Origin: Hydrogenophilus thiooxidans
Lineage (GTDB): Bacteria; Pseudomonadota; Gammaproteobacteria; Burkholderiales; Rhodocyclaceae
Direction: 5' to 3'
DNA: 64,000 nt
NCBI RefSeq assembly: GCF_019049855.1
Contig: NZ_JAHLSY010000002.1
Location: 62,001-126,000, forward strand
The stretch's first letter is position 1. Every line of letters begins with the position of its first letter. The notes beneath the pieces were generated by a model. That model did no database searches. It was not told the DNA's origin and saw nothing but the letters and a program-made list of their open reading frames with translations. Positions 44,712 through 54,930 of this stretch are shown in pieces. The position numbers and the translations under genes are program-made.

Positions 44712-45887
44712 TCAAAACGCGGCGATCCCCGTTTGCGCCCGCCCCAGAATGAGCGCGTGGATATCGTGCGTCCCTTCGTAGGTATTGACCACCTCGAGAT
44801 TGACCAGATGGCGAATCACGCCGAACTCATCCGAAATTCCGTTGCCGCCCAGCATGTCACGCGCCATTCGGGCAATTTCGAGCGCTTTGCCGCAGGAGTT
44901 GCGTTTGAGCATCGAGGTGACCTCCGGCGCCGCGATCCCTTCGTCTTTCATCCGCCCCAACCGCAAGCACGCCTGTAACCCGATTGCGATTTCGGTTTGC
45001 ATATCGGCCAACTTCTTCTGGATGAGTTGGTTCGCGGCAAGCGGCTTTCCGAACTGCTTGCGATCGAGCACATACTGCCGCGCGGTATGCCAGCAAAATT
45101 CCGCTGCGCCCAGAGCGCCCCAAGCGATGCCGTAGCGCGCCGAATCGAGGCACGTAAAAGGGCCACGCAACCCGCGAATCTCCGGAAAAACGTTCTCTTC
45201 GGGGACGAACACCTCATCCATCACGATCTCACCGGTGATCGAGGTTCGCAACCCCACTTTGCCGTGAATCGCCGGCGCGCTCAACCCTTTCAAGCCCTTT
45301 TCGAGCACGAAACCGCGAATGGTGCCGGCGTCATCTTTCGCCCAAACGACGAAGACGTCGGCGATCGGACTGTTGGTGATCCACATCTTGCGGCCCGTCA
45401 AGCGATACCCCCCCGGGACCGCGCGCGCCCGGCTCTCCATACTGCCGGGGTCGGATCCGTGGTTGGGTTCGGTAAGGCCGAAACAGCCAACCCACTCGCC
45501 TGTGGCTAACTTCGGGAGGAATTTCTGCCGCTGCGCTTCGGTGCCAAAGAGATAGATGGGTAACATCACGAGCGAACTTTGTACGCTCAACATCGAGCGA
45601 AAGCCGGAATCGATGCGCTCGATCTCCCGCGCGATCAGACCGTAGCTCACCGCATTCATCGCGGCGCACCCATACTCGGTAGGCAGCGTGCATCCCAAAA
45701 GCCCCAGTTCCCCCATCTCGCGGAAAATCGCACGATCGCACTTCTCTTCGCGAAACGCTTCACGCACCCGCGGCTGCAAGCGCTCCCGCGCGTAGCGCGC
45801 TGCGGTATCGCGCGCGGCGCGCTCCTCATCAGACAACTGGTTTTCCAATAAAAATGGATCTTCCCAACAAAAAGGGCGATAGCTCAT
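44712..45887 (-). CDS. gcdH: Glutaryl-CoA dehydrogenase
   Basis: FAD acyl-CoA dehydrogenase that oxidises and decarboxylates glutaryl-CoA to crotonyl-CoA. The 391-residue protein has the GcdH-like start [56 protein letters not shown], the subfamily segment [15 protein letters not shown], and the catalytic Glu in [20 protein letters not shown]. It lies 13 bp downstream of a DUF1850 gene in a five-gene set with a TAXI transporter and a CoA-transferase, which supports glutarate degradation. Confidence 0.94.
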
Positions 45888-45900
45888 CGATCGGCTCCCA

Positions 45901-46380
45901 TTAGGTGCTTTTTTGTTCCCCGCGACACGGCGCGATCTCCATACGCCAAGCAGATACCGACGTCATCGGAGCCTGCTCGGCATCCAAACGGCTTGCCGGT
46001 GGCAACAACGCACGACAGCCGCTTCCTTCGCCACACCATTCATAGGGCGCGGCAAAGGAAGAGTGGGTCAAAACCACTTTCGGCAACAGCCGGTTGGGGC
46101 GATAGACCCAAACACCGTGCTCAAAATGGGCCTCCGGTGGCGGTTCCATGCCCGCACCGCTACCCCGCACGCGTGCCGCAAGCAGACGCACGCCACCGGG
46201 TTCGGCCGTGTACGCCTCTTCCCACCAGCTCTTTTCGATGGAATGGCGCCAACGCAACGTCCCCGCTGCTCCCAATACCTCCAGAATCGGCGCCGAAGGG
46301 GCGTGCGGCGACGCGTCACGCGCCCCCGAGGCACCGAATGCCGCCCAGGAGAGGCAAAGCAGCCAAGCCATGTTATCCAT
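45901..46380 (-). CDS. DUF1850 family protein
   Basis: 159-residue exported protein. The first 16 residues form a hydrophobic signal ([16 protein letters not shown]). A DUF1850-like pattern follows: [17 protein letters not shown] (the conserved HSIEKS-like segment), [17 protein letters not shown] and [22 protein letters not shown] with two cysteines. Family members almost always sit beside fused TRAP permeases of the TAXI type, as here, and their role is unknown. The ATG at 46380 overlaps the end of the permease gene by 8 bp; a second ATG lies at 46371. Confidence 0.8.
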
Positions 46381-48496
46381 TCAACCCGATCTCGCGAACG
46401 ATGAGCAGCCCGGCCGCAAAAATTCCTGCGAGATCGGCAACCCACCACGGTACCGCCAGAAGAAGCGCCGCCGCTACGGCCAAAAGCCGCTCCCACCAAG
46501 CAAGGGAACCACCACCCTTACGGGTACCGATGATCGCGTACCCCCAACACCCTACCGCGAACAGGGCGCGCACGATCGCCCACAAAACGGCCCACCAGGC
46601 TGGGTCGCCTTGCAACATCAACGCAGGATCATAAACGGCAAGATACGGAACGACAAAACCAGCGGCCCCCAGCTGAAACGCTTTGAGACTGGTAGGTAAC
46701 GGCGGGGATTTCGCGATGCTCGACGCGGCATACGCCGCGAGCGCCACAGGAGGGGTGAGATCGGCCATCAGGCCGAAATAAAAGACATACATATGGCTGA
46801 CGATGAGCGGCACCCCCAACTCGAGGAGCGCTGGCGCCGCGATCGCACTCACGATGATGTAATTGGGGATCGTCGGGATCCCCATCCCTAAGACGAGACA
46901 AATCAGCATCGTCAAGACGAGCGCCAGGAACAGATGCTGCTTCCCGACAGAGAGGATATAACCCGCTAGCGACGTAGCAGCACCCGTCAGCGTCAGTACG
47001 CCAATGATCACCCCGACGATCGCACAAGCCACCCCAACGGGTAACGCCTGCATCGCTCCGACGATGAGACTCTCACGCACCCGATGCAACGTGTTTCGTC
47101 CCTCACGACGCCAAAAGAGCACCACTCCCAACGCGGCCAGGAGCAGCAACACCGGCAAGACGCCCCAGCGCACGACCAGCGCTCCCCAAACGCCAACGGC
47201 AATCCAGAAGAGGTATCGAAACGCTTGCCGCGAGACCATCGCCGCCACAGCGGTTCCCAAGACGAGCACCGCGGTGAGGGCCAACCCTGCCATCCCCGCA
47301 TACATCGGGGTATACCCCGCGAACAATAACCAAACAAGCCCAACGAGCGGCAACACCAAATACCACCGGGCGCGCAACGCTTGCCACGCGTTGGGGCACT
47401 CCTTGGGCGCAAGCCCCGCTAAGCCGCGTCGCTTCGCTTCCAGGTGCACCATCCAGAATACCGTAGCGAAATAGAGCAGCGCCGGCACGATCGCCGCACG
47501 GACGATTTCAGCGTAGGGTACGCCGATGTTTTCCGCCATGATGAACGCGACCGCCCCCATCACGGGTGGCATCACTTGCCCACCCATCGACGCGGTTGCT
47601 TCTACCGCTGCGGCAAAAGTCGGAGAAAAACCGCCGCGTTTCATCAATGGGATCGTGAATTGTCCGGTCGTCAAAACGTTTGCCACCGCTGAACCGGAAA
47701 TCGTCCCCATCAACGCCGACGAAAGCACCGAAACTTTCGCGGGGCCGCCCGCTGCGCGACCCACCAACCCCAACGCCACCTCGTTGAAGAGTTGCACCAT
47801 CCCGGCCCGTTCCAAGAATGCGCCGAAGAGGATGAAGAGAAAGATATAGGTCGCGGAAACGTAGATCGGAATTCCGAAGATCCCCTCAGCGCCGAAACTG
47901 AGCTGCTCGACCACCTGCTGCCATGCATAACCGCGATGGGCCAGCGCCCCAGGCGCCCACTGACCAAAGAGCGCGTACGCCAAGAAGAGCGCGCAGAGCA
48001 GGGGCAGAGGCCAACCCAACACCCTTCGCGCGGCCTCGAATACCAAGATCAAGAGCGCGACGCCAACGGCAAGATCGGCTTGGGTCGGATCTCCGGCGCG
48101 CAGAATCAGATCGTGTTCGAAAACCCCATAATAGAGAGCCAGAGACGCTGCAACGAGCGCCAGAAACAGTCCACCGATCCCACCGCCCCGTACCGGCGCT
48201 GCCGCCTCGACAACACGGCGGCGCGCCGGATAGAGCAGAAAAGTAAGGACGAGCAAAAACGCAACGTGCCACTCCCGAACGAGTTGCGACGACCAGGGAT
48301 GGAACGCCGCGACCAGCAGTTGATAACACGAAAACGCAAGCGCGACTCCACCCACCAACCAGCGCCAGCCGCGGGCAAGTGCCGCAAGGCGCGCCACCGC
48401 TTCCGACTCTTCGGCGTGGGGCACATGAGGGGGTGCGGCACTCGGCTCAACCGCCCCACCCTCAACCGCCTTACCCGTATCGCTCGTTTGACGCAT
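46373..48496 (-). CDS. TRAP transporter fused permease (4TM/12TM, TAXI type)
   Basis: Inner-membrane permease of 707 residues in which the small and large TRAP membrane subunits are fused. The large-subunit signatures are clear: GTISGSAVANVLTTGQFTIPLMKRGGFSP, TASMGGQVMPPVMGAVAFIMAE (shown as family motifs, split here), GMGIPTIPNYIIVSAIAAPAL and FGLMADLTPPVALAAYAASSIAKS. About 17-18 hydrophobic segments are visible. A Na+-dependent uptake mechanism is known for the family. I chose the ATG at 48496 after GGGGGA; a GTG 12 bases earlier is also possible. It follows the solute receptor gene by 32 bp. Confidence 0.92.
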   Translation of the reverse strand: MRQTSDTGKAVEGGAVEPSAAPPHVPHAEESEAVARLAALARGWRWLVGGVALAFSCYQLLVAAFHPWSSQLVREWHVAFLLVLTFLLYPARRRVVEAAAPVRGGGIGGLFLALVAASLALYYGVFEHDLILRAGDPTQADLAVGVALLILVFEAARRVLGWPLPLLCALFLAYALFGQWAPGALAHRGYAWQQVVEQLSFGAEGIFGIPIYVSATYIFLFILFGAFLERAGMVQLFNEVALGLVGRAAGGPAKVSVLSSALMGTISGSAVANVLTTGQFTIPLMKRGGFSPTFAAAVEATASMGGQVMPPVMGAVAFIMAENIGVPYAEIVRAAIVPALLYFATVFWMVHLEAKRRGLAGLAPKECPNAWQALRARWYLVLPLVGLVWLLFAGYTPMYAGMAGLALTAVLVLGTAVAAMVSRQAFRYLFWIAVGVWGALVVRWGVLPVLLLLAALGVVLFWRREGRNTLHRVRESLIVGAMQALPVGVACAIVGVIIGVLTLTGAATSLAGYILSVGKQHLFLALVLTMLICLVLGMGIPTIPNYIIVSAIAAPALLELGVPLIVSHMYVFYFGLMADLTPPVALAAYAASSIAKSPPLPTSLKAFQLGAAGFVVPYLAVYDPALMLQGDPAWWAVLWAIVRALFAVGCWGYAIIGTRKGGGSLAWWERLLAVAAALLLAVPWWVADLAGIFAAGLLIVREIGLNG

Positions 48497-48528
48497 CGCG
48501 TCCCCCACGCTCTGTCACACGGAGGGGA

Positions 48529-49488
48529 TCAGCGCAGCACACCCCGTTCGCGGTAGTAACGGGCCGCTCCCGGATGGAGCGGAGCGGGGGGATTTTCTGC
48601 CGCCCGTTCGAGCTGAACCCCTTTTGCGGCACTGTGCGCTGCGACCAACGCCTCGAGATGCTCGAAGAGCGCTTTGGTGATTGCATAGACCAGATCTTCT
48701 GCCACGCCGTCATGGGTGGCAAGATAGTTGCGGATGGCTACCGTCGATACCGGCTCACTCTGCCCTTCATAGGTTCCCGCTGGAATGGTCTCCGGTTGGA
48801 AGACTGGGTTGCCGATTTTCGCCACCACCGCTTCGGGAACGGGCACGAGCACGATCGGTAGCGCCGCGCCCAAGTCGCGCACCGCGGCCACACCCAAACC
48901 GGCGGAGATCAGAGTCGCGTCGAGTTGACGATTCTTCATCAACTCCACCGATTCGCCGAACGAGACATATTCGACTTTCCCCAACTCCGCGTAGGAGAAC
49001 CCTGCTGCCTGAAAGATCGTTCGGGCGTTGATTTCGGTGCCGCTGCGGGGCGCACCCACCGCAACCCGTTTCCCTTTGAGATCGGTCAGAGAGCGAATCC
49101 CCGAATCTTTACTGGCGACGATCTGAATGTAGTTGGGGTAGATCGCCGCCAGGGTGCGCAACTGTTTGAGCGGCGTTGGGAAACCGGCCTCAGCATCACC
49201 ACTCCATGCGTAAGCGAACGTGTCCCCCAACGTAAACGCCACCTCTCCCCGCCCTTTCGCAAGCAGGTTGAGGTTCTCGGCAGAGGCCTTGGTGGCTTGG
49301 ACATTCACCTTGGCATTGGGCAGTACTTGGCCAACGACCTGAGACAGCGCAACACCAAGCGGATAATAGACACCGCTCGTTCCCCCCGTGAGGATCGTCA
49401 CGAAGGTTTGACCCTGCGCTTGAGCGTGCCACGCAACCGGCAACAACAGGGTTGCGAGCGAACTTTGCAAGAATTCCCGTCTTTTCAT
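48529..49488 (-). CDS. TAXI-family TRAP solute-binding protein
   Basis: Periplasmic receptor of 319 residues for the fused TRAP permease. A signal peptide occupies residues about 1-25 (ending AWHAQAQG). The mature part has TILTGGTSGVYYPLGVALSQVV, the TAXI start motif, QATKASAENLNLLAKGRGEVAFTLGD (ATxASAENL), and later GKRVAVGAPRSGTEINARTI and VSFGESVELMKNRQLDATLISAG. The family binds dicarboxylates such as glutamate, 2-oxoglutarate or similar acids; the neighbouring GcdH and CoA-transferase favour glutarate. CoA-transferase ends 52 bp upstream. Confidence 0.92.
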   Translation of the reverse strand: MKRREFLQSSLATLLLPVAWHAQAQGQTFVTILTGGTSGVYYPLGVALSQVVGQVLPNAKVNVQATKASAENLNLLAKGRGEVAFTLGDTFAYAWSGDAEAGFPTPLKQLRTLAAIYPNYIQIVASKDSGIRSLTDLKGKRVAVGAPRSGTEINARTIFQAAGFSYAELGKVEYVSFGESVELMKNRQLDATLISAGLGVAAVRDLGAALPIVLVPVPEAVVAKIGNPVFQPETIPAGTYEGQSEPVSTVAIRNYLATHDGVAEDLVYAITKALFEHLEALVAAHSAAKGVQLERAAENPPAPLHPGAARYYRERGVLR

Positions 49489-49539
49489 CGCTGTCTCCTT
49501 TGGTTGTGGTAAATTTTTTTGATTGCTAATTAGGATAAC

Positions 49540-50796
49540 TCAAATCACCCCTTTTTGGCGCAACGCGGCGATTTCAGACGCGTCATACCCCAGCGAACGG
49601 AGCACGTCATCGGTGTCGGCGCCAAGAAGCGGCGGCGCGTTCCGATAAGTAACAGGGGTTTCGGAAAAGCGAATGGGATTGGCCACCTGTGGAACTTCAC
49701 CCGCAAGCGGATGGGGCAACATGCGCTTCATTTCACGATGAACCACTTGGGAATCGGAAAAGACCGCAGCAAGATCGTTGATCGGCCCACAAGGCACGCC
49801 GACCGCTTCCAACGCCCGGATCCAGTACGCGGTTGGTCGTCTGCGCGTCTCCTGCGCGATGAGCGGAATCAAGAGGTCACGATGGGCAACCCGCGCCGCG
49901 TTGGTGGCAAAACGGGGTTCCGTTGCCCACTCGGGGTGCCCCAGTTGCTCGGCAAGCCGCGCAAATTGCGCGTCGTTCCCCACCGCGAGGATCATGTGGC
50001 CGTCGGCGCTCGGAAAATCCTGGTACGGGACAATATTCGGATGGGCGTTGCCCAGCCGCTGCGGTACGCTACCGGAAACGAGATAATTGAGCGCCTGATT
50101 CGCCAGACACGCCACCTGAACATCCAAGAGCGCGAGGTCGATATGCTGACCCCGTCCCGTCTGCGCACGCGCGGCAAGCGCCGCAAGAATCGCGACCGTT
50201 GCGTACAACCCGGTGAGAATATCGGTCAGCGCAACGCCAACCTTCATCGGGCCGCCGCCAGGCTCGGAATCGGGGCGACCGGTGAGGCTCATCAACCCAC
50301 CGAGCCCCTGGATGAGAAAATCGTACCCAGCGCGGCCCGCATACGGCCCGGTTTGACCAAAGCCGGTGATCGAACAGTAGATGAGGCGCGGATTGCACGC
50401 GGCCAGTGTCGGGTAGTCGAGGCGATACGGCGCAAGCCCGCCTACCTTGAAATTCTCGACCACCACGTCCGCGCGTTGTGCCAGCCGATGAAGCACCGCT
50501 TGCCCTTCGGGCTGCGTAAAATCGACCGTCACTGAGCGCTTGTTGCGGTTTGCGCAGAGGTAATAGGCCGATTCCCCTGTTGCTCGACCCTCCCGATCGC
50601 GCAACCACGGCGGCCCCCAGTGGCGGGTATCGTCACCACGCCCAGGACGCTCGACCTTGATCACCTCCGCCCCCAGGTCGGCCAACAGTTGGGTCGCCCA
50701 CGGTCCGGCCAGAATACGGGAGAGGTCGAGCACGACCAATCCCGTCAAAGGCCCGCTGCGACACGCGTCGGGATCGGTCACAGAACCGTTCGCCAT
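49540..50796 (-). CDS. CaiB/BaiF family CoA-transferase (probable glutarate CoA-transferase)
   Basis: Class III CoA-transferase of 418 residues. The N-terminal half reads LTGLVVLDLSRILAGPWATQLLADLGAEVIKVERP (key parts LSRILAGPW and EVIKVE), YYLCANRNKRSVTVDF, and has the active-site Asp region in YDFLIQGLGGLMSLTGRPD. The C-terminal half contains GNDAQFARLAEQLGHPEWA and GVPCGPINDLAAVFSD. Starts at ATG 50796, three bases after the upstream gene. Its neighbours, a dicarboxylate-type TRAP system and GcdH, make succinyl-CoA:glutarate CoA transfer the most economical role. Confidence 0.86.
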   Translation of the reverse strand: MANGSVTDPDACRSGPLTGLVVLDLSRILAGPWATQLLADLGAEVIKVERPGRGDDTRHWGPPWLRDREGRATGESAYYLCANRNKRSVTVDFTQPEGQAVLHRLAQRADVVVENFKVGGLAPYRLDYPTLAACNPRLIYCSITGFGQTGPYAGRAGYDFLIQGLGGLMSLTGRPDSEPGGGPMKVGVALTDILTGLYATVAILAALAARAQTGRGQHIDLALLDVQVACLANQALNYLVSGSVPQRLGNAHPNIVPYQDFPSADGHMILAVGNDAQFARLAEQLGHPEWATEPRFATNAARVAHRDLLIPLIAQETRRRPTAYWIRALEAVGVPCGPINDLAAVFSDSQVVHREMKRMLPHPLAGEVPQVANPIRFSETPVTYRNAPPLLGADTDDVLRSLGYDASEIAALRQKGVI

Positions 50797-50798
50797 GG

Positions 50799-51611
50799 TC
50801 ACCAGATCCCTGCCGCTTCGAGTTGCGCGATGGCCTGCGCCGCCCAACCCCGGTTCGCCGCCGAGCTGGCCGGGCTGGGATGCAGCATCGTGACGACCTT
50901 GGGCATAGGCATCGCCTGCGCCAGCGGATCGGGTTGTTCACCGCTTCCTGTCGGCAAGGCGGCCGTTTCACCCCCCTCGGTGCGCACAAGCGCCTGTGCC
51001 GCCCGTTTCGCCGCCCATTGCCCAATCCCAACCACCCATTCGGGTTGCAACAACGAGACCACCGCGCGCAGATAGGCGTCACACTGCGTCAAGAGCGGCT
51101 CCCGCACCGCAGCGGGCAGTCTGTCCGGTGTGACGTTGCGCCCGTTCGCCAAGAACGCCAACGGACAGTAGTTGAGGACGAAATGGTCGGCGAAAAAGCG
51201 CTGCGGCGTGCCGAACCGTTCGGCGAACAACCCCCAAAGGCGCTGCCCAGAAACTTCGCGACGCGGACAGGCAAACCCGAGCACCGGTTTTTTCGGATCT
51301 TGGTTGGGCGGCGCATCCACCGGCGCGACGATACCCAACCAGTCGCGAACACTCGGAACGTCCCCAAACGGAATCCCGGTCTGGACCATCCCGAACGGTC
51401 CCGGATTCATGCCGACGAAGAGCACCCGTTTCCGACCGCTGCCATAGCGACTTAGGTACGCTTCGTGCGGCGCCCACGCATAGGTGAGCGGCGCATAGAC
51501 ATGGGTGATCGTCGGTGCGTGGGCGGCAATCGCTGCCGCATCCGACCACGGCAGCGTCATGTTCCGAAAACAGTGGGTGAGCGCAACGAGCGATGGTTCC
51601 TCAGGCGTCAC
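50799..51611 (-). CDS. SMUG1-like uracil-DNA glycosylase (family 3)
   Basis: Base-excision repair glycosylase removing uracil and related lesions. The 270-residue protein has the SMUG1 active-site motif GMNPGPFGMVQTG (residues 67-79) with GIPFGDV following, and the C-terminal HPSP (near residue 244), matching the NPGP...HPSP pattern of the family rather than the GQDPYH of Ung. LNYCPLAFL lies between them. The GTG start at 51611 overlaps the stop of the hydrolase gene upstream (GTGA). Family 3 enzymes are mostly animal, with scattered bacterial members. The downstream gene starts three bases after its stop. Confidence 0.85.
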   Translation of the reverse strand: MTPEEPSLVALTHCFRNMTLPWSDAAAIAAHAPTITHVYAPLTYAWAPHEAYLSRYGSGRKRVLFVGMNPGPFGMVQTGIPFGDVPSVRDWLGIVAPVDAPPNQDPKKPVLGFACPRREVSGQRLWGLFAERFGTPQRFFADHFVLNYCPLAFLANGRNVTPDRLPAAVREPLLTQCDAYLRAVVSLLQPEWVVGIGQWAAKRAAQALVRTEGGETAALPTGSGEQPDPLAQAMPMPKVVTMLHPSPASSAANRGWAAQAIAQLEAAGIW

Positions 51612-52327
51612 GCAAAAAGCTCCGCCAAAAAGTTCTGCATCGCTTGCCACGACCGGGCATCGGCTTTGGCGTCATAGACTGTGCCAAAACCTGGGTCGTT
51701 TGCCTCCGGATTGGTAAAGGCATGCATCGTGTGGCCGTAGGCGTGGAGCTGCCAGTCGGCCCCCGCGTCGGTCATCTCTTTGGCAAAAGCGAGAACGGCC
51801 TCCGGTTTTACCATCGGATCGTCCCAGCCGTGCAACGCGAGTACCTTTGCCGAAATTTTGTTGCCCGCGGTATTCCCGGGCGGGGTAAAGAGTCCATGAA
51901 AACTCACCACCCCTTTGACCGGCGCACCGACCCGCGCAAGATCGAGCACCGAAAGCCCACCGAAACAGAAGCCGATCGCTGCGATTTTCTCCGGATCGAC
52001 TTCGGGCTGCACCGCCAACGCATGAATCGCCGCTTGCAACCGTTTTTGCAGCAGCGCGCGATCCTGCACCAGGGGGGTCATCAGCGCTGCATTCTCCTCG
52101 CGCGATCGCCCCAACACCCCTTTGCCATAAACGTCCATCGCAAACCCGACGTACCCCAATTCGGCAAGGCGCTTGGCCTTGTCGATTTCGAACGCGCTGC
52201 GGCCTGCCCACGCGTGCGCCACCGCAACCGCCGGGCGCTTGCCGTGCGCGCGATCATCCCACGCCAGGATCCCTTCGAACGTTTTGCCATCGACCACGTA
52301 TTCGATCGCGCGTGTCTGAATGCCCAT
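51608..52327 (-). CDS. Dienelactone hydrolase family protein
   Basis: Cytosolic alpha/beta-hydrolase of 239 residues. The nucleophile elbow is GFCFGGLSVL (Cys instead of Ser, as in true dienelactone hydrolases), the Asp lies in ALHGWDDPMV and the His in YGHTMHAFTNP. The N-terminus GIQTRAIEYVVDGKTFEGILAW and VAHAWAGRSAFEIDKA are typical of the DUF/DLH subgroup with general esterase-like folds. Start follows GGAGGGAAAG. Natural substrate unknown; chlorocatechol degradation genes are absent from the window. Confidence 0.85.
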   Translation of the reverse strand: MGIQTRAIEYVVDGKTFEGILAWDDRAHGKRPAVAVAHAWAGRSAFEIDKAKRLAELGYVGFAMDVYGKGVLGRSREENAALMTPLVQDRALLQKRLQAAIHALAVQPEVDPEKIAAIGFCFGGLSVLDLARVGAPVKGVVSFHGLFTPPGNTAGNKISAKVLALHGWDDPMVKPEAVLAFAKEMTDAGADWQLHAYGHTMHAFTNPEANDPGFGTVYDAKADARSWQAMQNFLAELFA

Positions 52328-52382
52328 CTTTCCCTCCTTCCAGTGTCATGAAAAACCCGAAACGGACCGCGACACCCACCCC

Positions 52383-52793
52383 TCAACCGGGCCACGCGTG
52401 GGCTACGAGCAGATCGTACGGCACAGAGTCGAGCACCGATTGGTCGGTTGCTTCGAGCACCACCGGCGGCGCGACCCCAGCCTCGAGCGCCTCGATCCAG
52501 CGCCAAAGACAGACACACCAGCGGTCGCCTGCTTTGAGACCCGGAAAACGCCATTCGGGGCGCGGGGTGATGAGGTCGTTACCCCGCTGTAAAGAAAATT
52601 GGAGAAACGCGTCGGTGACGCGCACACAGATGGTGTGCGCCCCGGGATCTTCGGGGTGCGCACAGCAGTGGCCGTTGCGCGTAAAACCGGTGAGCGGCGC
52701 AAACGAACAGGGCGCCAATGGCTTGCCGAGCACATTGACACCCAGGACCACGGGGGGTTCGGTTTCGGGGTATTCCGCCATGAGCGGAATCAT
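52383..52793 (-). CDS. DUF2237 family protein
   Basis: 136-residue protein of unknown function. DUF2237 is evident in NVLGKPLAPCSFAPLTGF, the Cys-rich GHCCAHPEDPGAHTICVRVT, FSLQRGNDLITPRPEW, FPGLKAGDRWCVC and APPVVLEATDQSVL. Cysteines near residues 29, 43, 44, 55, 93 and 95 are spaced as in homologues and might bind metal. Starts at 52793 or at 52781; neither has a clear ribosome site. Upstream dsrE-like gene ends 6 bp away. Confidence 0.8.
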   Translation of the reverse strand: MIPLMAEYPETEPPVVLGVNVLGKPLAPCSFAPLTGFTRNGHCCAHPEDPGAHTICVRVTDAFLQFSLQRGNDLITPRPEWRFPGLKAGDRWCVCLWRWIEALEAGVAPPVVLEATDQSVLDSVPYDLLVAHAWPG

Positions 52794-52799
52794 ACCCGA

Positions 52800-53237
52800 T
52801 CACGGCCGAATGTAGGCGTACCCCTCTTTTGCCTGTAACCGCGCCACTTCGGCAACGCCACTGGGAACGATCTTCGCTTCCATCGCGACCTTCTCTTTGG
52901 GGATTTTGAATGCCGTCAGCGTGTTGTTGCAGACGCGAAACTCAACGCCACGGCTTGCCAACGCGCCGATCCGCTCCGCGAACGGTTTCCCGTTTGGGTC
53001 GACCGCATCCTCCAAAAGGAATTGGACCCCCGCTTTACCGTTTGCGACGACGACGATCTTGGCCGAGGGATCGGCGTCGAGGTGGTTACTGATGTTGTTG
53101 AGCCCACGCGCGGCCTCTTCCACCCCTTGGGTGAAATGGTATACCGCTTTCACCGGTTCGTCGGCGCGTGCTGTTGGGGCCAACGCACCCAGCGCGACGG
53201 TAGCAAGCAACGCCTGCACAAAGGTTCTTTTGTTCAT
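52800..53237 (-). CDS. Periplasmic DsrE-family protein
   Basis: 145-residue exported protein with a signal peptide (residues about 1-25, TFVQALLATVALGALAPTARA). The mature part has the DsrE/DsrF-like sulfur-relay fold: AVYHFTQGVEEAARGLNNISNHL, AKIVVVANGKAGVQFLLED, LASRGVEFRVCNNTLTA with a single Cys at the position of the reactive cysteine, and GVAEVARLQAKEGYAYIRP. The start ATG follows AAGGAGAG. It begins 23 bp after mobB and may be the end of the formate dehydrogenase transcript. Exported DsrE proteins have no established role here. Confidence 0.83.
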   Translation of the reverse strand: MNKRTFVQALLATVALGALAPTARADEPVKAVYHFTQGVEEAARGLNNISNHLDADPSAKIVVVANGKAGVQFLLEDAVDPNGKPFAERIGALASRGVEFRVCNNTLTAFKIPKEKVAMEAKIVPSGVAEVARLQAKEGYAYIRP

Positions 53238-53260
53238 GGGTTCTCTCCTTCGGGATCGAT

Positions 53261-53908
53261 TCAACGCGTGAAAGGCGCTTTCATTTTCACCGTAACGGTG
53301 CTACGCCTGATGAGATCGACTACAGCCATGGCTATCGCATCAGGGTTTTCCAATGGTAGCATCAATCGATTGCAGGATAGTTTTGCGCGCAGATCGGGTG
53401 TCGTGGCCACAGCGAAAACCCAAGTGTCTTCTGGCCAGAGGGCAGGGCCAAAGGTCTCACCGCGCCAGACTTCTACTTTCGGAATCGCCGCTCGTTTATA
53501 GCCTTCGACCAGTACGAGATCACAAGGGCGCAAAGCAGCCAACAATTCGGACAGCATCGGCGCTTCGGTCTGATTTTGATTTTCATAAATCACCGCCCAG
53601 CGGCGCGGCGATGCAACCACGACCTGCCGCGCGCCCGCATGGCGATGGCGCCAGGAATCTTTTCCGGGATGATCGATATCGCTCATGTGATGGGCGTGTT
53701 TCACGACAGCGACGTTCCACCCTTTTGCTGTCAGTGCCGCAACCACCTGAGTGACCAATGTCGTTTTACCGCTACCCGACCATCCCGCAAAGCCGATCAC
53801 AGGCGCCCCGTTTGGCGCACGCACTAGGGGAACGGTGTGGTGACCGCCGTCTGGTTTTTCCTCCGATGCAAAAACCCCAGCGGCAGCCATCCACTCGGTC
53901 GCTCTCAT
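53261..53908 (-). CDS. mobB: Molybdopterin-guanine dinucleotide biosynthesis protein MobB
   Basis: GTP-binding accessory protein for the guanylylation of molybdopterin, supplying bis-MGD for formate dehydrogenase. Residues about 35-44 hold the P-loop GWSGSGKTTL, followed by GWNVAVVKHAHHMSDIDHPGKDSWRHR, the conserved MobB His/Asp stretch, and DLVLVEGYKRAAIPKVEVWR. The ATG start at 53908 overlaps the stop of the cytochrome b subunit as ATGA. The protein is 215 residues, with an N-terminal extension of about 30 residues over E. coli MobB. MobA is not in the window. Confidence 0.93.
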   Translation of the reverse strand: MRATEWMAAAGVFASEEKPDGGHHTVPLVRAPNGAPVIGFAGWSGSGKTTLVTQVVAALTAKGWNVAVVKHAHHMSDIDHPGKDSWRHRHAGARQVVVASPRRWAVIYENQNQTEAPMLSELLAALRPCDLVLVEGYKRAAIPKVEVWRGETFGPALWPEDTWVFAVATTPDLRAKLSCNRLMLPLENPDAIAMAVVDLIRRSTVTVKMKAPFTR

Positions 53909-54930
53909 TGCCGCCGTCCCGTGATCTCTTGATACCAGACCGCGTGGTGTTGTTTGGCCCACGCTTCGTCCACGTAGCCGGTCTTCATCCCCTCAAGCGA
54001 CCCTTCCGACCCGATCGTTCCGATATAGATGTGGCCAAACGCCATCGCGATCATGAAAAGCGCTGCCGAGGCATGGAAGATATGCGCCAGTTGCATATCT
54101 TGGCGGGTCTGACCAAAGAGCGGGAAATCGAGGATCAGGCCGGTCACCGTGATCGTAAGCCCCAGCACGGTCACGCCCACCCAGAACCAAAATTTCTCAC
54201 CAAAATTGAAGCGTCCAGACGGGATCTCTTCACCGGAGAGTAAGCCGCCGAACTTCTTCGCCCAAAGCCAATCGACGCTGGTGAAAAGATTGTCTTTTGC
54301 CCAGCGCACGATCATCAACACCAAAAAGAACCCAAAGAGAGGGCCTGTATAGTTATGGACATTCTTGGCTACCCACAAAAGCGCGGCATTGACCGAAGTA
54401 CCGAAGATCGGCTCGATGAGATGCTTACCAAAGAGTAGGCTCAATCCGGTGAGTGCAAGCAGCACAAAGCTGATCGCCACGACCCAATGAACCAAGCGCT
54501 CGTAGACCGTAAAGCGAAGCAGCTTCCTTCCCGTCGTAGGCTCATGGAGCTTGATCGTCCCCTTTACCAAATAGAAAAGGGTGATCGCCACCATCACGGC
54601 GAGAATCAACCATCCGCCCCACACGGTAATCGGGCCATTACGGATCTGCCGCCAGGTGTTTCCCTCGGACTGGATGAGGACGTTTGCTTCCGGCGTCTGA
54701 ATCGAAGTCACCCCCGGCGCATAGAGCGAACGCCGAACGCCGTCATAAAAGGCAGCCGCGTTGTGGCCTTGCGGAACAACCATTACCGCTGGCGCTTGCG
54801 GATCGATCCGTCCGCCGCGGTAGCTCCCAACCTCTGCTCCATACGCAGCAGTCACCATGAGGAGCGGCACGAGAAGGGCCGCGGTGCAACGCCCCACCCT
54901 CCGCATCCAGCACGCAATCAACCGGCTCAT
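53905..54930 (-). CDS. fdoI: Formate dehydrogenase cytochrome b (gamma) subunit
   Basis: Membrane subunit of the respiratory formate dehydrogenase, passing electrons from FdhB to quinone. The 341-residue protein has a signal-like N-terminal helix (LVPLLMVTAAYG), a periplasmic segment of about 80 residues (including the SEGNTWRQIRNGPI region, conserved in these subunits), and then four transmembrane helices of the Ni-hydrogenase/FDH cytochrome b fold, with haem-ligand histidines in ERLVHWVVAISF, VHNYTGPLFG and HIFHASAALFMIAMAFGHIY. It sits after the small lipoprotein and overlaps mobB. Confidence 0.92.
   Translation of the reverse strand: MSRLIACWMRRVGRCTAALLVPLLMVTAAYGAEVGSYRGGRIDPQAPAVMVVPQGHNAAAFYDGVRRSLYAPGVTSIQTPEANVLIQSEGNTWRQIRNGPITVWGGWLILAVMVAITLFYLVKGTIKLHEPTTGRKLLRFTVYERLVHWVVAISFVLLALTGLSLLFGKHLIEPIFGTSVNAALLWVAKNVHNYTGPLFGFFLVLMIVRWAKDNLFTSVDWLWAKKFGGLLSGEEIPSGRFNFGEKFWFWVGVTVLGLTITVTGLILDFPLFGQTRQDMQLAHIFHASAALFMIAMAFGHIYIGTIGSEGSLEGMKTGYVDEAWAKQHHAVWYQEITGRRQ

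Follow-up and report, generated by a model that had tools for sequence, protein, structure and literature searches.

A candidate glutarate uptake and catabolism locus built around a TAXI-type TRAP transporter in Hydrogenophilus thiooxidans

In Pseudomonas putida KT2440, the genes gcdH and gcoT of the gcdR-gcdH-gcoT cluster are cotranscribed and are induced by glutarate via the activator GcdR, for which glutarate is the effector (PMC6667623). Five genes on the minus strand of a 64,000-nucleotide stretch of Hydrogenophilus thiooxidans DNA (contig NZ_JAHLSY010000002.1, positions 62,001 to 126,000; the whole stretch is called the window below) resemble this cluster in encoding a glutaryl-CoA dehydrogenase (GcdH) and a glutarate-type coenzyme A (CoA) transferase, with glutarate as the proposed substrate. 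They differ from it in that a TAXI-type TRAP transporter lies between the two enzyme genes, whereas the passages describing the P. putida cluster name no transporter (PMC6667623); moreover, gcdH comes last and the window holds no LysR relative. Among described transporters, VcGluPQM of Vibrio cholerae and TtGluBP of Thermus are similar to the window system in the fold of the receptor (Z 33-35) and in two pocket residues (Tyr41 and Ser69 of the window receptor), but the window has Leu, Asn, Lys and Arg in place of Gln93, Glu125, Gly73 and Gly154, its permease lacks the DUF3394 “claw,” and a DUF1850 gene comes next. The window permease can nevertheless be aligned with a DUF3394-containing permease (locus L123; L and G numbers denote loci and genomes) as far as the C-terminal helices. 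A functional parallel is KgtP of Escherichia coli, although this is a single-protein carrier of another family that has no binding protein. KgtP takes up glutarate in competition with 2-oxoglutarate, and according to the 2025 paper describing this activity, microbial transporters for the uptake of glutarate had not been reported until then (PMC12622518). By its description, the proton-driven PMI1055 TAXI system of Proteus mirabilis is also alike, having a permease with a three-helix extension and no claw, and an amine-free dicarboxylate, 2-oxoglutarate, as its substrate (cited in PMC11574862).

All five open reading frames (ORFs) of the module announced in a preliminary description of this DNA were found in one direction at the expected place, and profile searches confirmed their families. 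In gene order, they encode a class III CoA-transferase of the GcoT/SUGCT-like type that is proposed to activate glutarate (49540-50796; PF02515 CoA_transf_3, 439.7 bits), a TAXI-type TRAP solute receptor with a twin-arginine-like N-terminus (48529-49488; NMT1_3, 321 bits; TIGR02122 (TRAP_TAXI), 375 bits against a cut-off of 84), a fused TRAP permease without the claw domain (46373-48496; TIGR02123 (TRAP_fused), 699 bits against a cut-off of 321), a DUF1850 protein that is probably an accessory of the transporter (45901-46380; PF08905, 65 bits against a cut-off of 27), and GcdH (44712-45887; acyl-CoA dehydrogenase domains). With ATG starts adopted for the CoA-transferase (50796) and the permease (48496), instead of the TTG at 50847 and the GTG at 48508 at which the longest ORFs begin, the intergenic gaps are 51, 32, -8 and 13 bp; the last three agree with the earlier values, but the first had been given as 52. 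The negative value is an overlap of 8 bp between the permease and DUF1850 genes. The source genome (2.31 Mb in 71 contigs) contains a single match to the receptor (E 1e-3), a single GcdH (E 1e-100) and a single CoA-transferase (E 1e-90), and the permease is its sole TIGR02123 match over the cut-off.

The best reading of this locus for the organism, and one that we hold with moderate confidence, is a unit for the uptake and catabolism of glutarate, a C5-dicarboxylate; we infer the ligand from the gene identities, the recurrent clustering of the genes in several orders and an altered receptor pocket. The exported receptor would capture the diacid in the periplasm, and the fused permease, judging by its family, would import it on an ion gradient, with DUF1850, which is regularly associated with such transporters, possibly assisting. 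The CoA-transferase would shift CoA from succinyl-CoA to glutarate, as its family and gene neighborhood suggest, and GcdH would oxidize and decarboxylate glutaryl-CoA to crotonyl-CoA, which would enter β-oxidation; the reaction of GcdH is well established for the family that it matches closely.

The assignment of GcdH is based on its full-length alignment with two solved glutaryl-CoA dehydrogenases, 3d6b (702 bits) and 1sir (571 bits), which we take to be the Burkholderia-type and human enzymes, respectively. The stretch YEGTHDIH, which presumably contains the catalytic glutamate (E370 of human GcdH), is kept, and the score against NF045552, which we take to be the model for the Desulfococcus-type, non-decarboxylating enzyme, is far under the cut-off (202 against 470 bits). 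By similarity, the window GcdH would be of the decarboxylating type. The best solved relatives of the CoA-transferase are 4ed9 (419 bits) and SUGCT (9br7, 350 bits), and alignment with both places an Asp, presumably the catalytic one, in its GVALTD...TG motif. In relatives, the CoA-transferase gene adjoins gcdH, whereas the window has the transporter genes between the two. An electron-transfer flavoprotein (ETF)-quinone oxidoreductase was also found in the source genome, as were three open frames with 3-hydroxyacyl-CoA dehydrogenase domains.

The preliminary description had proposed a survey of gcdH with TAXI genes and had named lack of conservation as evidence that would count against it. For such a survey, 150 genomes from the family to which the window belongs were sampled evenly at a minimum completeness of 90; the receptor (E 1e-80) was found in 56, GcdH (E 1e-160) in 89, and both in 47, compared with 33 expected (Fisher p 2.3e-6, relatedness ignored). 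Of these 47 genomes, 14 (8 genera) have the receptor gene and gcdH no more than 5 kb apart and 16 (9 genera) no more than 10 kb apart; the grouping recurs, and the objection of missing conservation does not apply. Its wider distribution was followed in 96 distinct receptor loci, from which exact duplicates (L080, L120, L187 and L191), two outgroups (L122 and L123) and a locus without a receptor (L192) had been left out. Since L180-L191 were retrieved for their linkage to gcdH, such linkage is overrepresented in this set; the survey and the 80 named loci, for which similarity of the receptor was the sole criterion, are less biased. In the 96 loci, gcdH lies within 5 kb of the receptor in 17 and a CoA-transferase gene within 6 kb in 29. 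The combination of GcdH, a glutarate-type class III CoA-transferase and a TRAP importer, pointed out earlier for the window, recurs in many genomes and in several gene orders. The one-strand order gcdH, CoA-transferase, receptor, permease, DUF1850 is seen at 13 distinct loci (L034, L061, L074, L115, L180-L186, L188 and L189), with 1.1-1.6 kb separating the CoA-transferase from the receptor in L074 and L182. The order with gcdH last (CoA-transferase, receptor, permease, DUF1850, gcdH) occurs in the window and in its sister genome G002; L073 has receptor, permease and DUF1850 followed by gcdH with no CoA-transferase in reach, gcdH immediately precedes the receptor in L042, and the CoA-transferase is placed after DUF1850 in L076. 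Given this variety, the gene order of the window is unusual, and the association of gcdH with the transporter appears to have formed, or been rearranged, on more than one occasion. Among the receptor's nearest named relatives are many from Rhodocyclaceae and other β-proteobacteria, and its clade extends to Alphaproteobacteria and Sulfurospirillum. Separately, G034, a genome of the same order, shows a large expansion of TAXI-like receptors, with 16 matches.

The AlphaFold2 model of the window receptor (predicted local distance difference test score, pLDDT, 89.7) matches the solved TAXI proteins 9ibp, 8u79, 1us4 and 8s4j with Z 33-36. The best fold match is 9ibp, which is VCA0144 (Z 36.1, root-mean-square deviation (rmsd) 2.0 over 290 residues), and 8u79 follows with Z 35.0 and rmsd 3.5 over 293. 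In 91 receptor N-termini (the window, 88 ORFs of the clade and two outgroups), a twin-arginine pattern is present in 25 and a lipobox-like pattern in 6, and most close with an A-x-A-like site as judged by eye; tethering of the receptor as a lipoprotein was considered and set aside as unlikely.

The pocket was interpreted by comparison with VcGluP, in which Tyr45, Gln93 and Glu125 with their side chains, and Met201 with its main chain, hold the amino group of L-glutamate; the substitutions Q93A, Y45A and E125A reduce affinity 990-fold, 213-fold and only 1.3-fold, respectively, and neither 2-oxoglutarate nor adipate produces a thermal shift (PMC11574862). Pairwise alignment to VcGluP, checked in a multiple alignment, indicates that Tyr41 (Tyr45) and Ser69 (Ser75) are kept in the window receptor, whereas Leu87 (Gln93), Asn119 (Glu125), Ile194 (Tyr200) and Ser195 (Met201) are changed, and that Lys67 and Arg148 replace Gly73 and Gly154 of the glutamate binders. 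Leu87 and Asn119 are present in all 105 sequences of the clade that were compared (18 linked to gcdH, including the window, and 87 unlinked), and none has the glutamate-type Gln or Glu. If Lys and Arg at position 148 are counted as one, the 15 pocket positions are uniform across the 105 except for position 194 (Ile, Gln or Leu), a Gly for Ala at position 68 in three sequences and a single Ala at position 148. Of the two outgroups used as controls, L123, the second receptor of G002, has the glutamate-type Gln, Glu and Gly residues, and L122 is intermediate, with Leu and Asn yet with Gly at positions 67 and 148. VCA0144 has Asn at position 119 and Gln at position 87, and no ligand for it was found in the literature searched. 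Because the contacts to the amino group are lost and two basic residues are gained, the pocket would argue against glutamate and for an amine-free dicarboxylate. The split at position 194 (Ile in 44, Gln in 57 and Leu in 4, linked and unlinked alike) may mark two ligand preferences.

The preliminary description had started from the premise that TAXI systems take up dicarboxylates, which is too strong, since in the literature consulted the receptors tested bind L-glutamate; beyond these, 2-oxoglutarate and o-phthalate have one report each, and a knockout gives a hint of butyrate, glutamate, fumarate and acetate as further substrates (PMC11574862). What speaks for a dicarboxylate in the present system is the altered pocket. 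As for the proposal that glutarate itself is the likely ligand, the recurrent clustering and the non-glutamate pocket are in its favor, but the ligand is deduced indirectly and some genomes with the receptor have no GcdH.

Several observations weigh against the glutarate reading. The 18 gcdH-linked and 87 unlinked receptors have their pocket in common, and the change to Asn119 says little alone, since E125A costs VcGluP so little. Of the 56 genomes with the receptor, 9 are without GcdH at E 1e-160 (G016, G061, G086, G123, G125, G142, G161, G164 and G165), and of the 80 named loci only 6 have gcdH at a distance of up to 5 kb and 15 the CoA-transferase at up to 6 kb. Because the pocket is common to linked and unlinked receptors, the clade probably has one ligand class; taken with the genomes devoid of GcdH, this indicates that the ligands of the clade extend beyond glutarate or that the ligand is put to another use in other organisms. 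The best curated family of the CoA-transferase, NF052585 (succinate--glutarate CoA-transferase), scores 508 bits, which is below its cut-off of 750. Six homologs that adjoin gcdH (L154, L155, L186, L160, L163 and L115) also fall short at 538-551 bits, and for this reason the cut-off, in our reading, may be too narrow for this branch. Ligand data for any member of the receptor clade were not found in the literature searched. Psest_0084/85 presumably constitutes a TAXI system for 2-oxoglutarate. The tags SMb20036/20037, considered for the Sinorhizobium receptor, were dropped, as SMb20036 has been published as a quinate receptor modeled on SiaP.

The strongest rival, which we regard as unlikely although it deserves serious consideration, is that the transporter is a general importer of C4/C5-dicarboxylates (2-oxoglutarate, succinate, malate and perhaps glutarate) that came to lie beside glutarate enzymes by chance in some lineages. 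The common pocket and the spread of the clade into Alphaproteobacteria and Sulfurospirillum are in line with such a carrier, and so is a set of regulators. Relatives of the histidine kinase and sigma-54 response regulator of L040 are found beside 7 of the 96 loci, where they follow receptor, permease and DUF1850 (L040:13480-16827, L074:13350-16588 and five other loci), and an “ATP-binding protein” and a “sigma-54 dependent transcriptional regulator” are annotated at the same place in four (L195, L198, L199 and L200) of eight plasmid loci opened from 233 plasmid records with a match. This layout resembles that of DctB/DctD; all four kinases scanned (L040, L099, L074 and L190) have a dCache domain, and it is possible that kinase and regulator are the ligand-sensing pair of the clade. 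In favor of the glutarate reading, a LysR gene matching the gcdH-adjacent LysR of L154 at 71-74% is found beside gcdH in three of the 96 loci (L074, L186 and L190). In the 64-kb window, no relative of the LysR (L154 probe, E 1e-3), kinase or sigma-54 regulator probes was detected, a point against that reading. Uptake of glutarate by KgtP is inhibited by 2-oxoglutarate, succinate, malate and fumarate (PMC12622518), a precedent for the overlap of glutarate and other dicarboxylates in one carrier. On the other hand, repeated and variously ordered clustering with gcdH and the CoA-transferase would be surprising for a carrier of general use.

Import of a different acid whose breakdown leads to glutaryl-CoA, such as pimelate and longer odd-chain diacids or o-phthalate and other aromatic acids, is improbable. 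β-Proteobacterial gcdH mutants do show phenotypes on odd-chain diacids (PMC12543098), and an Azoarcus TAXI system imports o-phthalate (cited in PMC11574862); however, the five genes include no extra β-oxidation enzyme for longer diacids, and diacids of C7 and above are modeled as ABC substrates in the former study (PMC12543098). Anaerobic degradation of aromatic compounds as a feed of glutaryl-CoA is likewise disfavored, because the HGD-D (benzoyl-CoA-reductase-type) family was found in none of the 16 genomes with the cluster, a search that does not cover class II Bam enzymes. Import of L-glutamate (or glutamine), as in the characterized TAXI systems, is the least credible option, for although the nearest solved relatives by sequence, the Thermus proteins 8u79 and 1us4, were both solved with L-glutamate, TAXI genes of Cereibacter are required for Na+-dependent growth on glutamate (PMC12632250), and the Gln78 of the Thermus protein that matches Gln93 may matter less, just as E125A has little effect, the replacement of Gln93 and Glu125 by Leu and Asn, the 990-fold cost of Q93A (PMC11574862) and the fact that neither enzyme of the module uses glutamate all stand against it.

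The preliminary description had also seen in the locus a glutarate context for DUF1850, which did not hold: DUF1850 goes with the transporter and not with glutarate, because it accompanies the transporter clade mostly without a nearby gcdH. It is present in 83 of the 96 loci; of the other 13, nine hit a contig end and four (L049, L053, L091 and L108) have no DUF1850 nearby. Receptor, permease and DUF1850 stand in a row at all eight plasmid loci opened, and in the 41 genomes searched DUF1850 occurs in nine, always with a TAXI receptor no more than about 3.5 kb away (9/9). The term DUF1850 is absent from the open-licence literature searched (5.39 million papers). A comparison with the claw is informative here. 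The claw is limited to TAXI permeases near VcGluP in the tree, and its function is described as unknown (PMC11574862). G002 has a second TAXI system, which is of the glutamate type; its permease carries DUF3394, and a gene of the enoyl-CoA-hydratase family comes after it (L123:8331-12692). In the alignment, the DUF3394 of this permease falls in the C-terminal helix region, which the window permease and eight other aligned permeases keep, without the DUF3394 insertion. DUF3394 was matched in 6 of 29 genomes, 5 over the cut-off, and in G002 and G011, which have both domains, DUF1850 and DUF3394 sit at different receptor loci. The absence of the claw from the aligned permeases of this type and the separate loci of the two domains suggest that DUF1850 may replace the claw. 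The idea that DUF1850 is a detached claw of common origin obtained no support from profile comparison (hhalign probability 0.1%, with only four DUF3394 sequences). The DUF1850 model is all-β (pLDDT 85), and no solved structure is clearly related to it: Foldseek reached E 0.044 at best, and the top VIA match, an NAD kinase, scored Z 5.9 with rmsd 3.9 over 102. The hydrophobic stretch at the N-terminus of DUF1850 is modeled as a strand rather than a helix, and an evident signal peptide is absent. Invariant in 54 DUF1850 sequences are Cys 9, 116, 122 and 152, Trp44, His46 and Ser47, and these cysteines would suit disulfides or a metal site.

Upstream of the module, the ATG of the CoA-transferase gene is 2 bp past the stop of a gene of the uracil-DNA-glycosylase superfamily (50799-51650, minus strand; PF03167, 45 bits), which has no obvious functional link to the module and overlaps a gene of the dienelactone-hydrolase family (51608-52327, minus strand; PF01738, 155 bits; its product 96% identical to the counterpart in G002). 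The co-directional run is thus longer than five genes, and since DUF2237, DsrE-family and mobB genes precede the dienelactone-hydrolase gene on the same strand (50799-53962 for the whole upstream part), the transcript may start well upstream of the module. Promoter (2 against 1.5 expected from shuffles) and terminator (15 against 11.0) scans are close to the shuffled level, and neither decides co-transcription. Downstream, on the opposite strand, are an NlpC/P60 gene and metF.

It is tempting to speculate further, tentatively and with some doubt, that a large TAXI subfamily, which occurs in Sulfurospirillum and in Alpha-, Beta- and Gammaproteobacteria, forms a transporter type of its own. Its pocket, replacing the glutamate pocket, would bind an amine-free dicarboxylate by means of two basic residues, and DUF1850 would be a small, near-obligate subunit doing the job of the DUF3394 claw; its gcdH-linked branch may be the first binding-protein-dependent glutarate importer. 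Ligands are known for few TAXI receptors, and the present cluster adds a named candidate for which predictions can be made at the level of residues. In addition, DUF1850 becomes a concrete question on how TAXI permeases work with their receptors.

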